The notes under the pieces were generated by a model. That model was not told the DNA's origin. It made no database searches and saw nothing but the letters and a program-made list of their open reading frames with translations. 64,000 nt of DNA from Pseudonocardia abyssalis. GTDB taxonomy: Bacteria; Actinomycetota; Actinomycetes; Mycobacteriales; Pseudonocardiaceae. The DNA lies in the NCBI RefSeq assembly GCF_019263705.2, contig NZ_JADQDK010000001.1, forward strand, positions 4,092,001-4,156,000. Direction: 5' to 3'. Positions within the stretch are counted from its first letter, which is position 1. Each line of letters starts with the position of its first letter. Of this stretch, positions 28,693 through 33,570 are shown in pieces. Made by a program: the position numbers and the translations under genes.

Positions 28693-28971
28693 GTGGACGC
28701 CGTGTTCAAGGCGATCGGCGACCCGACCAGGCGGGCCGTCCTCGACGAGCTCGTCGACCGCGACGGCCAGACGCTGTTCGAGATCTGCTCACGCCTGACG
28801 ATGAAGCACGGGCTCACGTCGTCGCGGCAGGCGATCTCGCAGCACCTCGCCGTACTGGAGGAGGCCGGCCTGGTCACGACCCGTCGCGAGGGCCGCTACA
28901 AGTTCCACCACCTCGACACCACCCCGCTGCGCTCGATCACCGAGCGCTGGCCGATCCGGGAGCAGTCATGA
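28693..28971 (+). CDS. ArsR-family transcriptional regulator
   Basis: The 92-residue winged-helix repressor has FKAIGDPTRRAVLDELVDRD (first helices) and the recognition helix SSRQAISQHLAVLEEAGLV, then the wing RREGRYKFHHL. The CxC-type metal motif of classical ArsR/SmtB members is absent (its lone Cys is in the EICSRL helix), so it belongs to the non-metal subgroup often paired with VOC or SRPBCC genes. It overlaps the following VOC gene by 4 nt. Likely autorepressor through the palindrome directly upstream. Confidence 0.9.
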   Translation: MDAVFKAIGDPTRRAVLDELVDRDGQTLFEICSRLTMKHGLTSSRQAISQHLAVLEEAGLVTTRREGRYKFHHLDTTPLRSITERWPIREQS

Positions 28972-29360
28972 TCCGCATCACCGTCACCAGCGTGTTCGTC
29001 GACGACCAGGACAAGGCGCTCGCCTTCTACACCGACGTGCTCGGGTTCGTGAAGAAGCACGACGTCCCGATGGGCGAGTACCGCTGGCTCACCGTCGTCT
29101 CCGCGAAGGACCCCGAGGGCACCGAGCTGCTGCTGGAGCCATCCGCGCACCCGGCCGCCACCCCGTTCAAGGAGGCGCTGGTGGCCGACGGCATCCCGTT
29201 CACCTCCTTCGGCGTCGACGACGTGCACGCGGAGTTCGAGCGGCTCAGCGCGGCCGGGGTGCGGTTCGTGCAGGAACCGGCCGACATGGGGCCGGTCACC
29301 GTGGCCACGCTCGACGACACCTGCGGCAACCTCATCCAGATCGCGACCATGAACGGGTGA
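28968..29360 (+). CDS. VOC family protein (glyoxalase-like)
   Basis: This 130-residue vicinal-oxygen-chelate protein has two beta-alpha-beta-beta-beta modules (FVDDQDKALAFYTDVLGF; TSFGVDDVHAEFERLSAAG) and a C-terminal strand DDTCGNLIQIATM. Enzyme activity and metal cannot be assigned; relatives include glyoxalases, dioxygenases and antibiotic-binding proteins. The start ATG is coupled to the arsR stop, so it is almost certainly the target of that regulator. Confidence 0.88.
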   Translation: MIRITVTSVFVDDQDKALAFYTDVLGFVKKHDVPMGEYRWLTVVSAKDPEGTELLLEPSAHPAATPFKEALVADGIPFTSFGVDDVHAEFERLSAAGVRFVQEPADMGPVTVATLDDTCGNLIQIATMNG

Positions 29361-29369
29361 CCGGGCTGG

Positions 29370-29375
29370 TACGGT
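29370..29375 (+). promoter_or_regulatory. -10 element of the DAHP synthase leader transcript
   Basis: TACGGT ends exactly 6 nt before the GTG of the leader peptide at 29382, the spacing expected for a leaderless transcript. No clear -35 is seen. Confidence 0.5.
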
Positions 29376-29381
29376 CGCCCC

Positions 29382-29447
29382 GTGCAGCGCCAGTACTGGT
29401 TTACCGATCCGGCCCGTGTGGGGTCGGCGGTCGAACCGCTGCGCTGA
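29382..29447 (+). CDS. Leader peptide with Tyr-Trp-Phe codons
   Basis: A 21-codon open frame from GTG 29382 to TGA 29445-29447 begins MQRQYWFTDPAR. Tyr, Trp and Phe codons are consecutive at 29394-29402, and these are the three end products of the pathway begun by the DAHP synthase encoded 80 nt downstream. The start is 6 nt after a TACGGT -10 hexamer. The peptide itself probably has no function; ribosome stalling at the aromatic codons would set the fold of the RNA that follows. The frame is too short for ordinary gene calling. Confidence 0.75.
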   Translation: MQRQYWFTDPARVGSAVEPLR

Positions 29448-29513
29448 CCTCCTCCCCACGAGCCGGATCGAACGGCTCGGACGGGGACTTCTCGGCGGGC
29501 CGCTCCCCGGAGC
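29418..29513 (+). promoter_or_regulatory. Candidate four-segment attenuator before DAHP synthase
   Basis: Segment 1 GTGGGG (29418-29423) can pair with segment 2 CCCCAC (29454-29459). Segment 2 CGAGCCG (29459-29465) pairs perfectly with segment 3 CGGCTCG (29473-29479). Segment 3 CGGGGA (29482-29487) pairs with segment 4 TCCCCG (29504-29509). A small hairpin GCTCC/GGAGC (29502-29513) abuts the AAGGA ribosome site. A ribosome stalled at Tyr-Trp-Phe favours 2:3; one that reaches the stop at 29447 masks segment 2 and favours 3:4. There is no T-run, so segment 4 could act on termination or on translation. Confidence 0.6.
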
Positions 29514-29527
29514 AAGGACCGCCTCCC

Positions 29528-30601
29528 GTGCTCACCGTTCCCGCACTCGACGCGCACCGCACCACGCGCGTCAGCCCGCTGATCTCACCGTCGCTGCTGC
29601 GCCACGACCTCCCGGTCTCCGAGACCGTCGCCGACACCGTGACGCGGGCCCGCGCCCAGGTCGTCGACGTCCTCGACGGCCTCGACGACCGCCTGCTCGT
29701 CGTCGTCGGCCCCTGCTCGATCCACGACCCGGCCGCCGGGCTCGACTACGCCCACCGGCTCACCGCGGTCGCCGCCCGCCACGAGGGTGAGCTGCGGATC
29801 GTCATGCGCACCTACTTCGAGAAGCCGCGCTCGACCGTCGGGTGGAAGGGCCTGATCAACGACCCACACCTCGACGGCACGTTCGACGTGAACGCCGGAC
29901 TCCGGACCGCGCGCCGCCTGCTCCTCGAGATCTCCGCGCTCGGGCTGCCAGTGGGCTGCGAGTTCCTCGACCCGATCACGCCGCAGTACCTGGCCGACGT
30001 CGTGAGCTGGGGGTCGATCGGCGCGCGGACGGCGGCGAGCCAGGTGCACCGCCAGCTGTGCAGCGGGCTGTCGATGCCGGTGGGGATCAAGAACGGCACC
30101 GACGGGGACGTGCAGGTCGCCGTCGACGGGGTGGGCGCGGCGGCCGCGAGCCACGTGTTCATGGGCATCAACCCCGACGGCCTCGCCGCCCTGATCACCA
30201 CCGCGGGCAACCCCGACTGCCACGTCATCCTGCGCGGCGGCTCCGGCGGCCCCAACCACGACACCGACTCGGTGACGGCCGCGCTCGCACGGATGCGCAA
30301 GGCCGGGCTGCCCGAGCGCGTGATCGTCGACGCCAGCCACGCCAACAGCGGCAAGGACCACGTGCGGCAGGCCGGGGTGGCCCGCGAGGTCGCCACCCGG
30401 ATCGCCGGCGGGGAGCGCGGCGTCGTGGGCGTGATGCTGGAGAGCTTCCTCGTCGGTGGACGCCAGGAGCTCGGGGCCGACATGACCTACGGGCAGTCGG
30501 TCACCGACGCCTGCATGGGCTGGGACACCACCGCCGAAGTCCTGGACGAGCTGGCGTCGGCCGTGGCGGGGCGTCGGGGCCGGTCGTCCGTCACGGGGTG
30601 A
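29528..30601 (+). CDS. aroG: 3-deoxy-7-phosphoheptulonate (DAHP) synthase, class I
   Basis: This 357-residue cytosolic enzyme condenses phosphoenolpyruvate and erythrose 4-phosphate, the first step of aromatic amino acid synthesis. The AroF/G/H class is shown by LLVVVGPCSIHDP, MRTYFEKPRSTVGWKGLINDPHL split over residues 92-115, GARTAASQVHRQLCSGLSMPVG, GIKNGTDG and VIVDASHANSGKDH. Many actinobacteria rely instead on the class II enzyme, so this is possibly a second isozyme. GTG start with AAGGA upstream. It sits behind the Tyr-Trp-Phe leader, implying attenuation control. Its 3' end overlaps an opposing gene by 115 bp. Symbol is by class only. Confidence 0.93.
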   Translation: MLTVPALDAHRTTRVSPLISPSLLRHDLPVSETVADTVTRARAQVVDVLDGLDDRLLVVVGPCSIHDPAAGLDYAHRLTAVAARHEGELRIVMRTYFEKPRSTVGWKGLINDPHLDGTFDVNAGLRTARRLLLEISALGLPVGCEFLDPITPQYLADVVSWGSIGARTAASQVHRQLCSGLSMPVGIKNGTDGDVQVAVDGVGAAAASHVFMGINPDGLAALITTAGNPDCHVILRGGSGGPNHDTDSVTAALARMRKAGLPERVIVDASHANSGKDHVRQAGVAREVATRIAGGERGVVGVMLESFLVGGRQELGADMTYGQSVTDACMGWDTTAEVLDELASAVAGRRGRSSVTG

Positions 30602-30867
30602 CCGACCCCGGCGACCGGGGCCGGCACGGTGTGCAGCCGGACCACCCGTACCGAGACGCTCTGCAGTTCCTCGTCCCGCAGCCCTCGCAGGACCTGGTCG
30701 GCCTCGTGGACGGCCTGCTCGGCGCCCAGCGGGCCGTAGGCGTCGATCTCGTGGGTGACGCGGTCGGCCACGGTGACGACGTAGGCCGTGCAGTCGTCGA
30801 GCTCGGTCGTCAGCGAGGCCAGTACGTCCGGCCAGTCGTCCGGCCGCCTCGACCGGTGGGCGGTCAC
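30487..30867 (-). CDS. Hypothetical protein coupled to the sortase gene
   Basis: This is a 126-residue protein of unrecognised family. The first 85 residues look structured (PDDWPDVLASLTTELDDCTAYVV and EIDAYGPLGAEQAVHEADQVL); the last 40 are Arg/Ser/Thr-rich and are encoded antisense to the end of the DAHP synthase gene. The GTG start overlaps the sortase TGA (GTGA), which supports real translation. The 115-bp antisense overlap is unusually long, so the true functional part may be the N-terminal two thirds. Confidence 0.6.
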   Translation of the reverse strand: MTAHRSRRPDDWPDVLASLTTELDDCTAYVVTVADRVTHEIDAYGPLGAEQAVHEADQVLRGLRDEELQSVSVRVVRLHTVPAPVAGVGHPVTDDRPRRPATADASSSRTSAVVSQPMQASVTDCP

Positions 30868-31511
30868 GCCGGGACGGTGTCGAGCAGGGTCGCGTAGACG
30901 ACGACGTTCGACTCGTAGTGGCCGGCCACGGGATCGAACTCACCGCCGCAGGTCACCAGCCGCAGGTCCCGCGACCCGGCGGACGTGTAGACCCGCCGGG
31001 CCGGGAACTCCTCCTTCGGGTACGTCTCGACCGACCCGACCGCGAACCGCGCCACGGTCCCGTCGGCCAGCCCCACGTCCACCTGGTCGCCCGCCTCCAG
31101 GGAGCGCAGGCGGAAGAACACGGCCGGACCGGTGGTGGAGTCGACGTGCCCGAGGATGACGGAGGCCCCGACCTGACCGGGTGTGGGCCCGAGGTCGAAC
31201 CACCCCGCCATGGAGTAGTCGACGGGCACCTCGACGGTCCCGTCGGTGTTGAGCCCCAGCTCCCCCAGCGGGGAGCCGGCCAGCTCGATCGCGGGGATGT
31301 CGAGGCTGACGGGCCGCGACACCGGGACGACGGCGACCGGGACGACGGCCGGAACCGCCGCCGGAGCGGAGGCGTCCCCGGCCGCCGGGACCGGCCGGTC
31401 GAGCACCCACGGCAGCACGACCGCCGCACCGAGCAGCAGGACCAGCCCGGCGGCCACGGCGACCCACCGCTCCCGCCCGATCCGGGGTACCCGCCACCGA
31501 CCGGGCCTCAC
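30864..31511 (-). CDS. Class F sortase
   Basis: The 215-residue membrane-anchored transpeptidase has a single N-terminal helix (about 17-37), an Ala/Val/Pro-rich spacer, then the sortase barrel. Catalytic His122 lies in ILGHVDS and Cys188 in LVTCGGEFD. The C-terminal NVVVYATLL strand is typical of class F. The gene lies 88 bp downstream of a reverse-strand gene encoding a large exported protein ending in FPATG-helix-Arg, its probable substrate. It would join the Thr of that motif to cell-wall peptide. Confidence 0.9.
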
Positions 31512-31583
31512 CGGCGTACGCCGGGTCGACGGTCCCGCGGTCGCGTGCAGGCAGGTGCGACGGGCCGCCCGCCCGGCCGGAAC

Positions 31584-31598
31584 CGCCGCCCGGCGGCG
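31584..31598 (-). terminator. GC-rich palindrome after the adhesin gene
   Basis: CGCCGCC and GGCGGCG (31584-31590, 31592-31598) form a tight hairpin beginning 2 bp past the adhesin stop codon. Without a T-run it may slow rather than stop transcription into the sortase gene. Confidence 0.35.
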
Positions 31599-31599
31599 A

Positions 31600-33192
31600 T
31601 CACCGGACGTTCCGGCGACGGTGGAACCGCAGGGCCAGCGCGGTGGAGCCGAGGAGCACCAACCCGCCGGCGAGCACCCAGGCCACGTCGTCGGGGCCGG
31701 CCGTGCCGCCCGCGCCGGTGGCCGGGAAACCGAGCGGGACCACGACGTCGGAACCGGATCCGTTGCCCCCGGTCACGCCGCCGTCACCGCCGCCGCTACC
31801 GGAACCGCTCCCGGCGGCCGGGGTGGTCACGTCCCCCCGGTCCTCGGAGTCACCGTTGTCGGTGTCGTCGCCGTTCTCGACACCTTCGCCGCTGCCGGAG
31901 TCCTCACCGTTGTCGACGCCCTCGCCGTTGTCGGAGTTGTCCTCGTCACCGGGAACGTCGGACTCATCAGAGTCTCCGGGGTTGCCCGGGTTTCCGGGGT
32001 TGCCCGGGTTTCCGGGGTTACCGGGGCTTCCAGGGTTGCCCGGGTTACCGGGGTTGCCCGGGTTACCGGGGCTTCCAGGGTTGCCCGGGTTTCCGGGGTT
32101 GCCCGGGTTTCCGGGGTTGCCCGGGTTTCCGGGGTTGCCCGGGTTACCGGGGTTGCCCGGGTTACCGGGGTTGCCCGGGTTCCCAGGATTGCCCGGGTTC
32201 CCAGGATTGCCCGGGTTCCCAGGATTGCCGGGGTTGCCGGGGTTGCCCGTCGTCGTCGTCGGCGGGGCCGTGGTCGTCGTCGGCGGGGCCGTCGTGGTCG
32301 TCGTCGGCGGGGCCGTGGTCGTCGTCGGCGGGGCCGTCGTGGTCGTCGTCGGCGGGGCCGTCGTGGTCGTCGTCGGCGGGGCCGTCGTGGTCGTCGTCGG
32401 CGGGGCCGTCGTCGTGGTCGGCGGCGTCGTGGTCGGCTCGGGAGCGGGGGTGGCCGCGCAGCCCGTCCGGTTGATCACGTTGTTGTCGAGGGTGACGGCG
32501 CCGTTGCGGGCGAGCAGACGGCCCTGCACGGTCGCGCCGGTGTTGGCGGAGATCGAGGTCAGCGCCATGACCGTTCCGCGGAACGTGGTGCCGGTACCCA
32601 GCGTCGCGGAGCTGCCGACCTGCCAGAACACGTTGCAGGCGTTCGCGCCGTTGATGAGGGCGACCGTGCTGTTCGACGCGGTGATCAGGGTGGAACCTGC
32701 CTGGAAGACGAACACCGCGCCGGGGTCCCCCTGGGCGTCCAGGGTCACGGTGCCGGTCAGGCCCAGCGGTCCGGCGTCGCCGTACACACCCGCGACGAAC
32801 GTCTGCCCGCCGAGCTCGGTGCCCGACGCGGCGTCGCGGGGCTGACCGGCCGCGTTGTCGTAGGCGATCGTCAGGTCCGACTGGGCCTGCAGCGCGACGG
32901 AGTTGGCGACCTGCTGCGTGCCGCCGCTGACCAGACCGGGCGGGAACCCGGTCACGGCGGAGCCCGGGCTGAGTCCGAGGTCACCGGACACCTGGGTCGG
33001 ACCGGTGTTGGTCACGGTCGAGCCCGCGAGCACGGCGAAGCTCGCCGCGGTGCCGAGCGGCACCGCCGTCGCGGCCAGCGCGGTACCCGCGGCCAGCAGC
33101 ATCAGCGTGGTCACGAGCAGCGCGACGGTGGCCGTGACGGCGGCACCGATGCGGGCCCGTCTCGTGCCGGCCGGCGGCACGGGTTGGTTCAT
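31600..33192 (-). CDS. Ice-binding-domain (DUF3494) cell-wall adhesin with collagen-like stalk
   Basis: This is a 530-residue exported wall protein. Residues 1-40 are a signal peptide ending GTALA. Residues 42-245 form a DUF3494/ice-binding-like beta-solenoid ([48 protein letters not shown]). Residues 254-314 are Thr-rich repeats (TTTTAPP) and 315-405 are about 30 Gly-Asn/Ser-Pro triplets resembling a collagen-like stalk. An Asp/Glu/Asn-rich region follows. The C-terminus is a sorting signal: FPATG near 486, a hydrophobic helix and an Arg-rich tail. The domain in non-polar bacteria more likely mediates adhesion than ice binding. ATG 33192; GTG 33201 is possible. Confidence 0.88.
31978..32248 (-). 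repeat. 9-bp coding minisatellite (Gly-Asn/Ser-Pro triplets)
   Basis: About 30 tandem 9-bp units encode the collagen-like stalk of the adhesin. Units differ at silent positions in a patchwork, which points to repeated unequal exchange and likely length variation between strains. Confidence 0.85.
32250..32430 (-). repeat. Thr/Pro-rich coding repeats of the adhesin
   Basis: Seven or so units of 18-21 bp encode TTTTAPP or TTTTTAPP. They form a flexible, probably glycosylated spacer between the folded domain and the collagen-like stalk. Confidence 0.8.
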
Positions 33193-33570
33193 GGTGGGCA
33201 CGTCGTCTCCAGACAGGGGTCGGCCACCCCGTCCAGGGCGTGCCGAGATGAGCCGGCGGGCGCGCCGGAAGGGGATGTGCGCCGCGGAGGCGGCGGGGAG
33301 CGGCCTCGAGCAGCCGGGGACACGTCGCACCGGGACGCGTGCGGCCTCGGGGGCCGCGGGCCGGGCGTCCGGACGACGTGATGGCGTCACCGACGCCGGT
33401 GACGGCCTGTACGCTCACGCGACCGAGTGATCGACCCGTGACCGTCTTCTATTGCTTGACAAACAACAGCCTGCGCCTTGCACTACGGTCTGTCAAGCGG
33501 TGATGCACCAAGCGTCAAGGGCGACGGCCGGTCGACTGTGAGCGAGTCCCACGAGGAGCGAGGCCGACGC
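33193..33570. promoter_or_regulatory. Intergenic control region between adhesin and HTH genes
   Basis: The 378-bp region has a local drop in GC around 33440-33500. TTGACA occurs on the + strand at 33456-33461 and on the - strand at 33491-33496, as an inverted CTTGACA/TGTCAAG pair separated by 29 bp. A further GTCAAG lies at 33514-33519. The two -35-like boxes face each other and point toward the HTH gene and the adhesin gene respectively. A TACGGT -10-like hexamer lies at 33484-33489. No additional gene is seen. Confidence 0.45.

Follow-up and report, generated by a model that had tools for sequence, protein, structure and literature searches.

The aroF gene of Pseudonocardia abyssalis, located in the 64,000 nt stretch of DNA analysed here (the window), is preceded by a short leader ORF in which Tyr, Trp and Phe codons stand side by side. 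We find it probable that this leader and the RNA behind it act as a ribosome-mediated translational attenuator, where a stalled ribosome would free the Shine-Dalgarno (SD) sequence of aroF and a ribosome finishing the leader would leave it closed. As judged from sequence comparison, the aromatic leader before DAHP synthase (DAHPS) genes is real and strongly conserved. The comparison further shows that the aromatic residues of the leader, a -10 hexamer fixed relative to its start codon, and helices 1:2, 3:4 and 4:5 of the RNA have been kept along with it. DAHP synthase controls the entry of carbon to the shikimate pathway, from which many natural products of actinobacteria are also derived.

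The leader ORF (29382..29447, plus strand) runs over 21 codons from a GTG start to a TGA stop at 29445-29447 and encodes VQRQYWFTDPARVGSAVEPLR, beginning VQRQYWF; the sensing codons TAC (Tyr), TGG (Trp) and TTT (Phe) occupy 29394..29402 on the same strand. The stop lies 80 nt before aroF (29528..30601, plus strand, GTG start), the product of which is a class I 3-deoxy-7-phosphoheptulonate synthase (DAHP synthase) with a TIGR00034 score of 499.8 bits against a cut-off of 173.2, and this assignment bears out the placing of the leader before the first enzyme of the pathway. As expected of an attenuator, a short ORF rich in codons for the products of a pathway is found upstream of a biosynthetic gene. 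No second relative of the AroF protein was found in the P. abyssalis genome; a class II DAHP synthase is present elsewhere in it, and the 600 bases around the start of that gene (L205) showed no aromatic leader.

An aromatic-run leader was judged by eye to stand upstream in 68 of 80 DAHPS loci taken from named genomes, and is therefore not due to chance. The leader-bearing genera include, among others, Pseudonocardia, Amycolatopsis, Rhodococcus, Kutzneria, Kribbella, Actinoplanes, Glycomyces, Streptomyces, Mycolicibacterium, Gordonia, Tsukamurella and Paenarthrobacter. The 12 loci without a leader peptide (L035, L038, L042, L047, L049, L057, L059, L064, L068, L072, L073 and L079) are four from non-actinobacterial MAGs, six from Nocardiopsis or Thermobifida and two from actinobacterial MAGs. 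A covariance model built from the window and 37 of the 80 loci gave a single match per genome in 88 of 200 sampled Pseudonocardiaceae genomes, a scan run with the stricter filters that apply to more than 40 genomes; 87 of the matches adjoin a DAHPS gene and one (G116) lies at a contig end. A class-wide scan matched 17 of 394 genomes, a figure we do not use as a distribution because the model was tuned to class B (the elements without a terminator, see below) and the same stricter filters applied.

In the 200-genome set 86 DAHPS proteins are at least 64% identical to that of the window, and the element stands just upstream in 85 of these cases; the exception is G063, whose upstream DNA (L186) we read as an eroded element. 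Two model matches lie adjacent to less similar DAHPS genes (G018, 61% identity; G029, 58%). Among 17 DAHPS of at most 62% identity (L187-L203) the upstream DNA gave one leader that we counted, the clear MTITYRWFEWPAA belonging to a DAHPS of 61% identity (L197, genome G066). Short ORFs with an aromatic pair at L187-L189, L198 (VSYWA) and L199 were left out of the count, and no aromatic leader was seen in the upstream DNA of the remaining loci of this series. L187 and L189 (genomes G107 and G085) are second DAHPS genes, and the short ORF upstream of them ends GWWEIS(K/T), possibly a separate Trp-type leader.

From 168 sequences a parser, which required F with W or Y nearby, extracted 150 elements, 149 of them with DAHPS directly downstream (the exception, L114, is at a contig end). 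The 18 unparsed sequences are the 12 without a leader, four missed leaders (L041, L046, L061, L074) and two lost ones (L165, L168). At L165, L168 and L186, which come from one genus (genomes G091, G197 and G063), the leader peptide has disappeared or can no longer be recognised, but a -10-like hexamer is still present together with segment 4, the SD region and a large part of the 2:3 hairpin; on the face of the DNA these are natural losses of the sensor.

Tyr, Trp and Phe were found together in the leader of 83 of the 88 model matches (82 of 87 fetched and read in the best-scoring frame, plus the window), which upholds the aromatic leader peptide of the preliminary description. In the stretch of seven codons that closes with the last Phe, all three residues are present in 137 of 140 unique parsed elements, and Trp and Phe in the other three; the count on model matches is the cleaner one, as the parser itself required F plus W or Y. 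The leaders of L124, L130 and L138, with FAFWF and RSFWF, are without Tyr and retain Trp and Phe. The order of the run varies (QYWF, YFWF, WYRF, YYWF), RYFWF being found 38 times, RQYWF and AYFWF nine times each, FYFWF eight, TYFWF seven, RWYRF six and RYYWF five, in addition to others. Since the run is rearranged between species, it is the residues that are kept and not the bases. Aromatic residues are rare 3' of the run (20 of 1944 residues), and in 92 of the 103 class B elements the last Phe codon is separated from the stop by 14 codons.

TTT encodes the last Phe in 138 of 140 leaders and TAT encodes Tyr in 110 of 150, whereas aligned parts of the DAHPS genes at the same loci have TTT in 1 of 359 and TAT in 0 of 409; for these residues the codon preference in the run is opposite to that of the downstream gene. 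Elsewhere in the run Phe is mostly encoded by TTC (81 of 87). The U-ending codons may give slow decoding when charged tRNA is low, another reading being that they keep an A/U-rich stretch unstructured.

A putative promoter -10 hexamer, TACGGT, is located at 29370..29375 (plus strand), 6 nt 5' of the leader start. Its position suggests that the mRNA has its 5' end at the leader GTG, and supports the earlier proposal that the leader ORF, which is presumably translated, is itself leaderless. In 138 elements a TANNNT starts at -13 from the leader start codon in 100 and at -12 in 29, and falls within -14..-11 in 130. An SD-like string precedes the leader in 8 of the 138, against an SD before the DAHPS gene in 97 of 101 class B elements. 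The sigma-70 scan of the window, which also demands a -35, gave no promoter at the aroF leader. The positions previously given for these features, including 29370-29375 for TACGGT, all proved correct, and the observation as a whole is confirmed.

Five RNA segments can be drawn behind the sensing codons, all on the plus strand. Segment 1 (29405..29423) lies within the leader and consists of GATCCGGC (29406-29413) and GTGGGG (29418-29423), and segment 2 (29454..29469) comprises 2a, CCCCAC (29454-29459), and 2b, GAGCCGGATC (29460-29469, with GAGCCG from 29460). Segment 3, CGAACGGCTCG (29469..29479, including CGGCTCG at 29473-29479), can pair with 2b or with 4; segment 4, GGCGGGCCGCTCC (29494..29506), can pair with 3 or with 5; and segment 5, GAGCAAGGACCGCC (29510..29523), includes the aroF SD AAGGA at 29514-29518. 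Segments 3 and 5 resemble each other because both pair with 4. Segments 1, 2 and 3 of the four-segment scheme first put forward are retained here, but its segment 4, with CGGGGA (29482-29487) paired to TCCCCG (29504-29509), was rejected, as this pairing is confined to the window and its closest kin, and L001 (89% protein identity) already has TCACCG.

The five segments were extracted from each of the 103 class B elements, and the duplex energy of each pair was compared with that of partners swapped between species in 2000 permutations, a procedure that corrects for ancestry only in part. Co-adaptation was seen for 1:2 (own -27.3, swapped -25.4 kcal/mol, z -8.4), 3:4 (-15.0 and -12.7 kcal/mol, z -9.6) and 4:5 (-12.4 and -10.7 kcal/mol, z -8.3), with 0/2000 in each case. 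Three control pairs in class B showed none (z 2.4, 0.4 and 3.0), nor did 2b:3 (z 1.0). In a reduced set of 29 sequences with similarity score below 0.75 the corresponding values were -3.8 for 1:2, -6.8 for 3:4 and -4.4 for 4:5 (0/5000 each), five controls giving z of 1.4, 0.2, 2.4, 0.4 and 0.7.

Helix 2b:3 is paired in 99.6% of cells without variation, and GAGCCGG is unchanged in 38 of 38 aligned sequences. The helix being invariant, covariation is uninformative on 2:3; of the alternative pairings proposed earlier, both 1:2 and 2:3 are supported, the latter without covariation. The extension of 2:3 through 2a is weak (z -2.2 in class B, -1.2 in the reduced set). For 3:4 the alignment columns hold 29 double-changed cells against 15.4 when shuffled (0/500) and are 87% paired against 23-56% when slid, with changes across species such as AAGCC with GGCTT, AGACC with GGTCT and GGACC with GGTCC. 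This column test beats the shuffles on three of five measures, the numbers of pairs with a double change and of those with further pair types being no better than shuffles.

Duplex energies in the window are -35.0 kcal/mol for 1:2 and -18.2 kcal/mol for 4:5. In isolation the window RNA folds only slightly more stably than shuffled sequence (z -1.75; 12 of 200 shuffles equally stable), hence the case rests on comparison and not on folding energy. Two structures that look stable were discarded for showing no co-adaptation, namely a stem between the 5' end and the stop (CAGCGC:GCGCTG; z 0.3, reduced set 0.6) and a hairpin inside the leader (z -1.3, reduced set -1.2). The conserved pairings are mutually exclusive and have a set position with respect to the sensing and stop codons, as in an attenuator, and one of the alternative structures (4:5) sequesters the aroF SD, as in a translational attenuator. 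The check put forward in the preliminary description, conservation of codons and of pairing in related genomes, has thereby come out in its favour.

From this arrangement we infer the ribosome positions, the direction of the switch and the response to each amino acid. The transcript would begin at the leader GTG, which would be translated without an SD. If charged tRNA for Tyr or Trp is short (Phe is more doubtful in the window), the ribosome would wait on 29394-29402, its front edge then standing where segment 1 begins, so that 1:2 could form, 3 would be left for 4, and the SD in segment 5 would be free (ON). A ribosome at the stop would cover most of 2a and not 2b, in agreement with the stop placement suggested earlier, and once the leader is completed 2:3 and 4:5 would form and bury the SD (OFF). 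In the trp attenuator of E. coli the position of the ribosome likewise sets overlapping alternative hairpins, with four segments and a terminator; the aroF element differs in having five segments, the last hairpin lying over the SD, and with five segments the formation of 1:2 would go with ON.

We calculated the cost of opening the SD in 100 elements, placing the front edge of the ribosome at a distance of 16 nt, counted from the first P-codon base. With the A-site codon 5, 4, 3, 2, 1 and 0 codons before the last Phe the median costs were 2.5, 2.2, 2.1, 2.4, 3.6 and 4.8 kcal/mol; past the last Phe and up to the stop the medians were 4.5-5.8 kcal/mol (about 5 at the stop itself), and untranslated RNA, with a median of 4.7, was closed too. 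In this calculation the SD is open at the first aromatic codons and also at some codons upstream, and so not at the sensing codons alone; it is intermediate at codon -1 (Trp in most leaders) and closed at the last Phe. The SD was harder to open (>0.5) at the stop than with aromatic codon -2 waiting in 67 of 97 elements and easier in 5; against aromatic codon -1 it was harder in 52 of 94 and easier in 5, and against the last Phe harder in 33 of 100 and easier in 12. Allowing the RNA upstream of the finishing ribosome to pair changed these numbers to 66 (7), 46 (10) and 29 (25), respectively.

For the window itself the opening costs were 1.1 at Tyr, 0.9 at Trp, 2.9 at Phe, 2.6 at the stop and 2.5 for free RNA. 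As the value at Phe is not below that at the stop, sensing of Phe is unsupported there by the calculation, and the lowest-energy stalled fold differs from the ON fold as drawn. L004 and L013 gave no change in SD opening between ribosome positions. Chimeras combining the leader and the post-stop part of different species had much the same opening curve, which therefore reflects a common core.

No site resembling an intrinsic terminator and no U-tract was found at 29300-29700 of the window, and the terminator of the earlier scheme is accordingly abandoned; in class B a hairpin followed by TTT was present in 3 of 103 elements, as compared with 1 of 309 shuffles. Since the conserved segment 4 would control the aroF SD, the output is most likely translation. 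The missing U-tract would also fit Rho-dependent premature termination, in which the leader ribosome and the translation of aroF would set the loading of Rho on the untranslated stretch. Rho has been weakly proposed for mycobacterial cys leaders (PMC1262725, in the excerpts available) and could act along with the SD switch, but alone it leaves the co-adapted 4:5 helix over the SD unexplained, and we hold this explanation to be unlikely. We consider it quite unlikely that the element is a classical transcription attenuator, with the ribosome governing an intrinsic terminator made of CGGGGA and TCCCCG: both arms exist in the window and relatives from other groups have U-tract terminators in the same interval, but the window has no terminator-like site, such sites are rare in class B, and the arm is broken in L001.

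Those relatives are found among the 37 elements outside class B, where U-tract terminators lie in the interval between segment 2 and the gene in 21 by a strict rule and in 28 by a relaxed one. A strong hairpin with a U-tract is seen here in L043, L051, L055, L157, L160-L162, L164 and others. Helix 1:2 is co-adapted in this group as well (z -6.9, 31 of 37 usable). The idea of an antiterminator in these relatives was given up, since the terminator arm showed no co-adapted pairing with the leader (z 0.8), the stop region (z 2.7) or segment 2 (z 1.5). A U-tract terminator before the gene, as in the trp type, is found only in these terminator-class relatives and not in the window. As the same kind of leader occurs with SD control or with a terminator, it seems to be one sensor with two outputs. 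We lean slightly towards the full reading, in which one leaderless ORF reads three aromatic tRNAs, an exchange among five segments (1:2 and 3:4, or else 2:3 and 4:5) acts on the aroF SD with the parity of the trp attenuator inverted, and in other Actinobacteria this sensor with its 1:2 helix is followed by a U-tract terminator, as one sensor family with two outputs.

The leader might instead mainly boost aroF translation via ribosome reinitiation, without sensing amino acids. In bacteria, leader genes have been proposed as sites of reinitiation (PMC4833913, as excerpted), but the distance of 80 nt from the leader stop to aroF and an aromatic run kept in changing order and with rare codons make this very improbable. 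That the leader ORF is incidental to a riboswitch-like RNA binding a metabolite directly is hardly credible: the RNA is conserved, and in one genus (L165, L168, L186) its 3' half remains although no leader can be recognised, but the aromatic residues are kept despite changing bases, the -10 is fixed relative to the start codon, and an Rfam search of 28800-30000 gave three matches with E 3.8 to 4.3, all below gathering.

Among known systems, as far as the available excerpts of the sources describe them, AroR of C. glutamicum is the nearest to the proposed translational attenuator; our sample of 80 loci holds no Corynebacterium. AroR has a Phe-Tyr-Phe leader before aroF and responds to Phe and not to Tyr (Neshat et al. 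2014, as treated in PMC11802643; predicted in PMC4046766). The two share a short aromatic-run leader before a class I DAHPS aroF, and ribosome stalling; AroR is without Trp and is described as acting on transcription, whereas the P. abyssalis leader includes Trp and its output looks translational. The Mycobacterium tuberculosis ilvB1 uORF reads LVVI (PMC13236596), likewise with several amino acids in one run and, as proposed there, a ribosome at the stop masking an anti-structure, but it reads branched-chain amino acids and has an intrinsic terminator. Judging by these excerpts (PMC11802643, PMC13236596), the preliminary remark that attenuators normally read one amino acid was too strong. The leaderless polycysteine ORFs of Mycobacterium smegmatis (Canestrari et al. 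2020, cited in PMC9031893 and PMC13236596) also represent translation attenuation by a leaderless sensing ORF in an actinobacterium, and differ in reading one amino acid and in the genes concerned. The uORFC-13-1 motif of Acholeplasma aroF has a uORF with at least one Phe codon (PMC8632094), a likeness to the present leader, but it comes with an intrinsic terminator and its own ribosome-binding site, with no Tyr or Trp described in the excerpt.

Of the broader surveys, again as excerpted, PMC1262725 reports other amino acid pathways to be without conserved structures in the actinobacteria that it examined, PMC8079986 has eight S. lividans leaders with none at DAHPS, and for the terms searched aromatic leaders do not come up in PMC4633059. 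Multi-residue leaders are already known; neither a Tyr-Trp-Phe leader, alone or together with an SD output, nor a translational aroF switch was found in the literature searched, which held few subscription papers. If the attenuator is true, sensing of Tyr, Trp and Phe together would explain how DAHPS is set by its end products collectively, and a widespread aroF switch would be a direct engineering target. Further, a single sensor joined to SD control in some species and to termination in others would offer a natural comparison, and the rare U-ending codons kept at sensing positions a testable case.

The aroF frame stays open 5' to a GTG at 29357 (29357-29527; a 414-aa ORF), so automatic annotation could begin the protein before the leader and thereby hide it. 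Directly 5' of the aroF promoter, at 28693-29360, an ArsR/SmtB-type regulator overlaps (28968-28971) a small VOC/glyoxalase-like gene, the latter scoring under its family cut-offs. On the minus strand at 30864-33390 a class F sortase is located beside a protein with long T/P-rich and GNPGNPG repeats.
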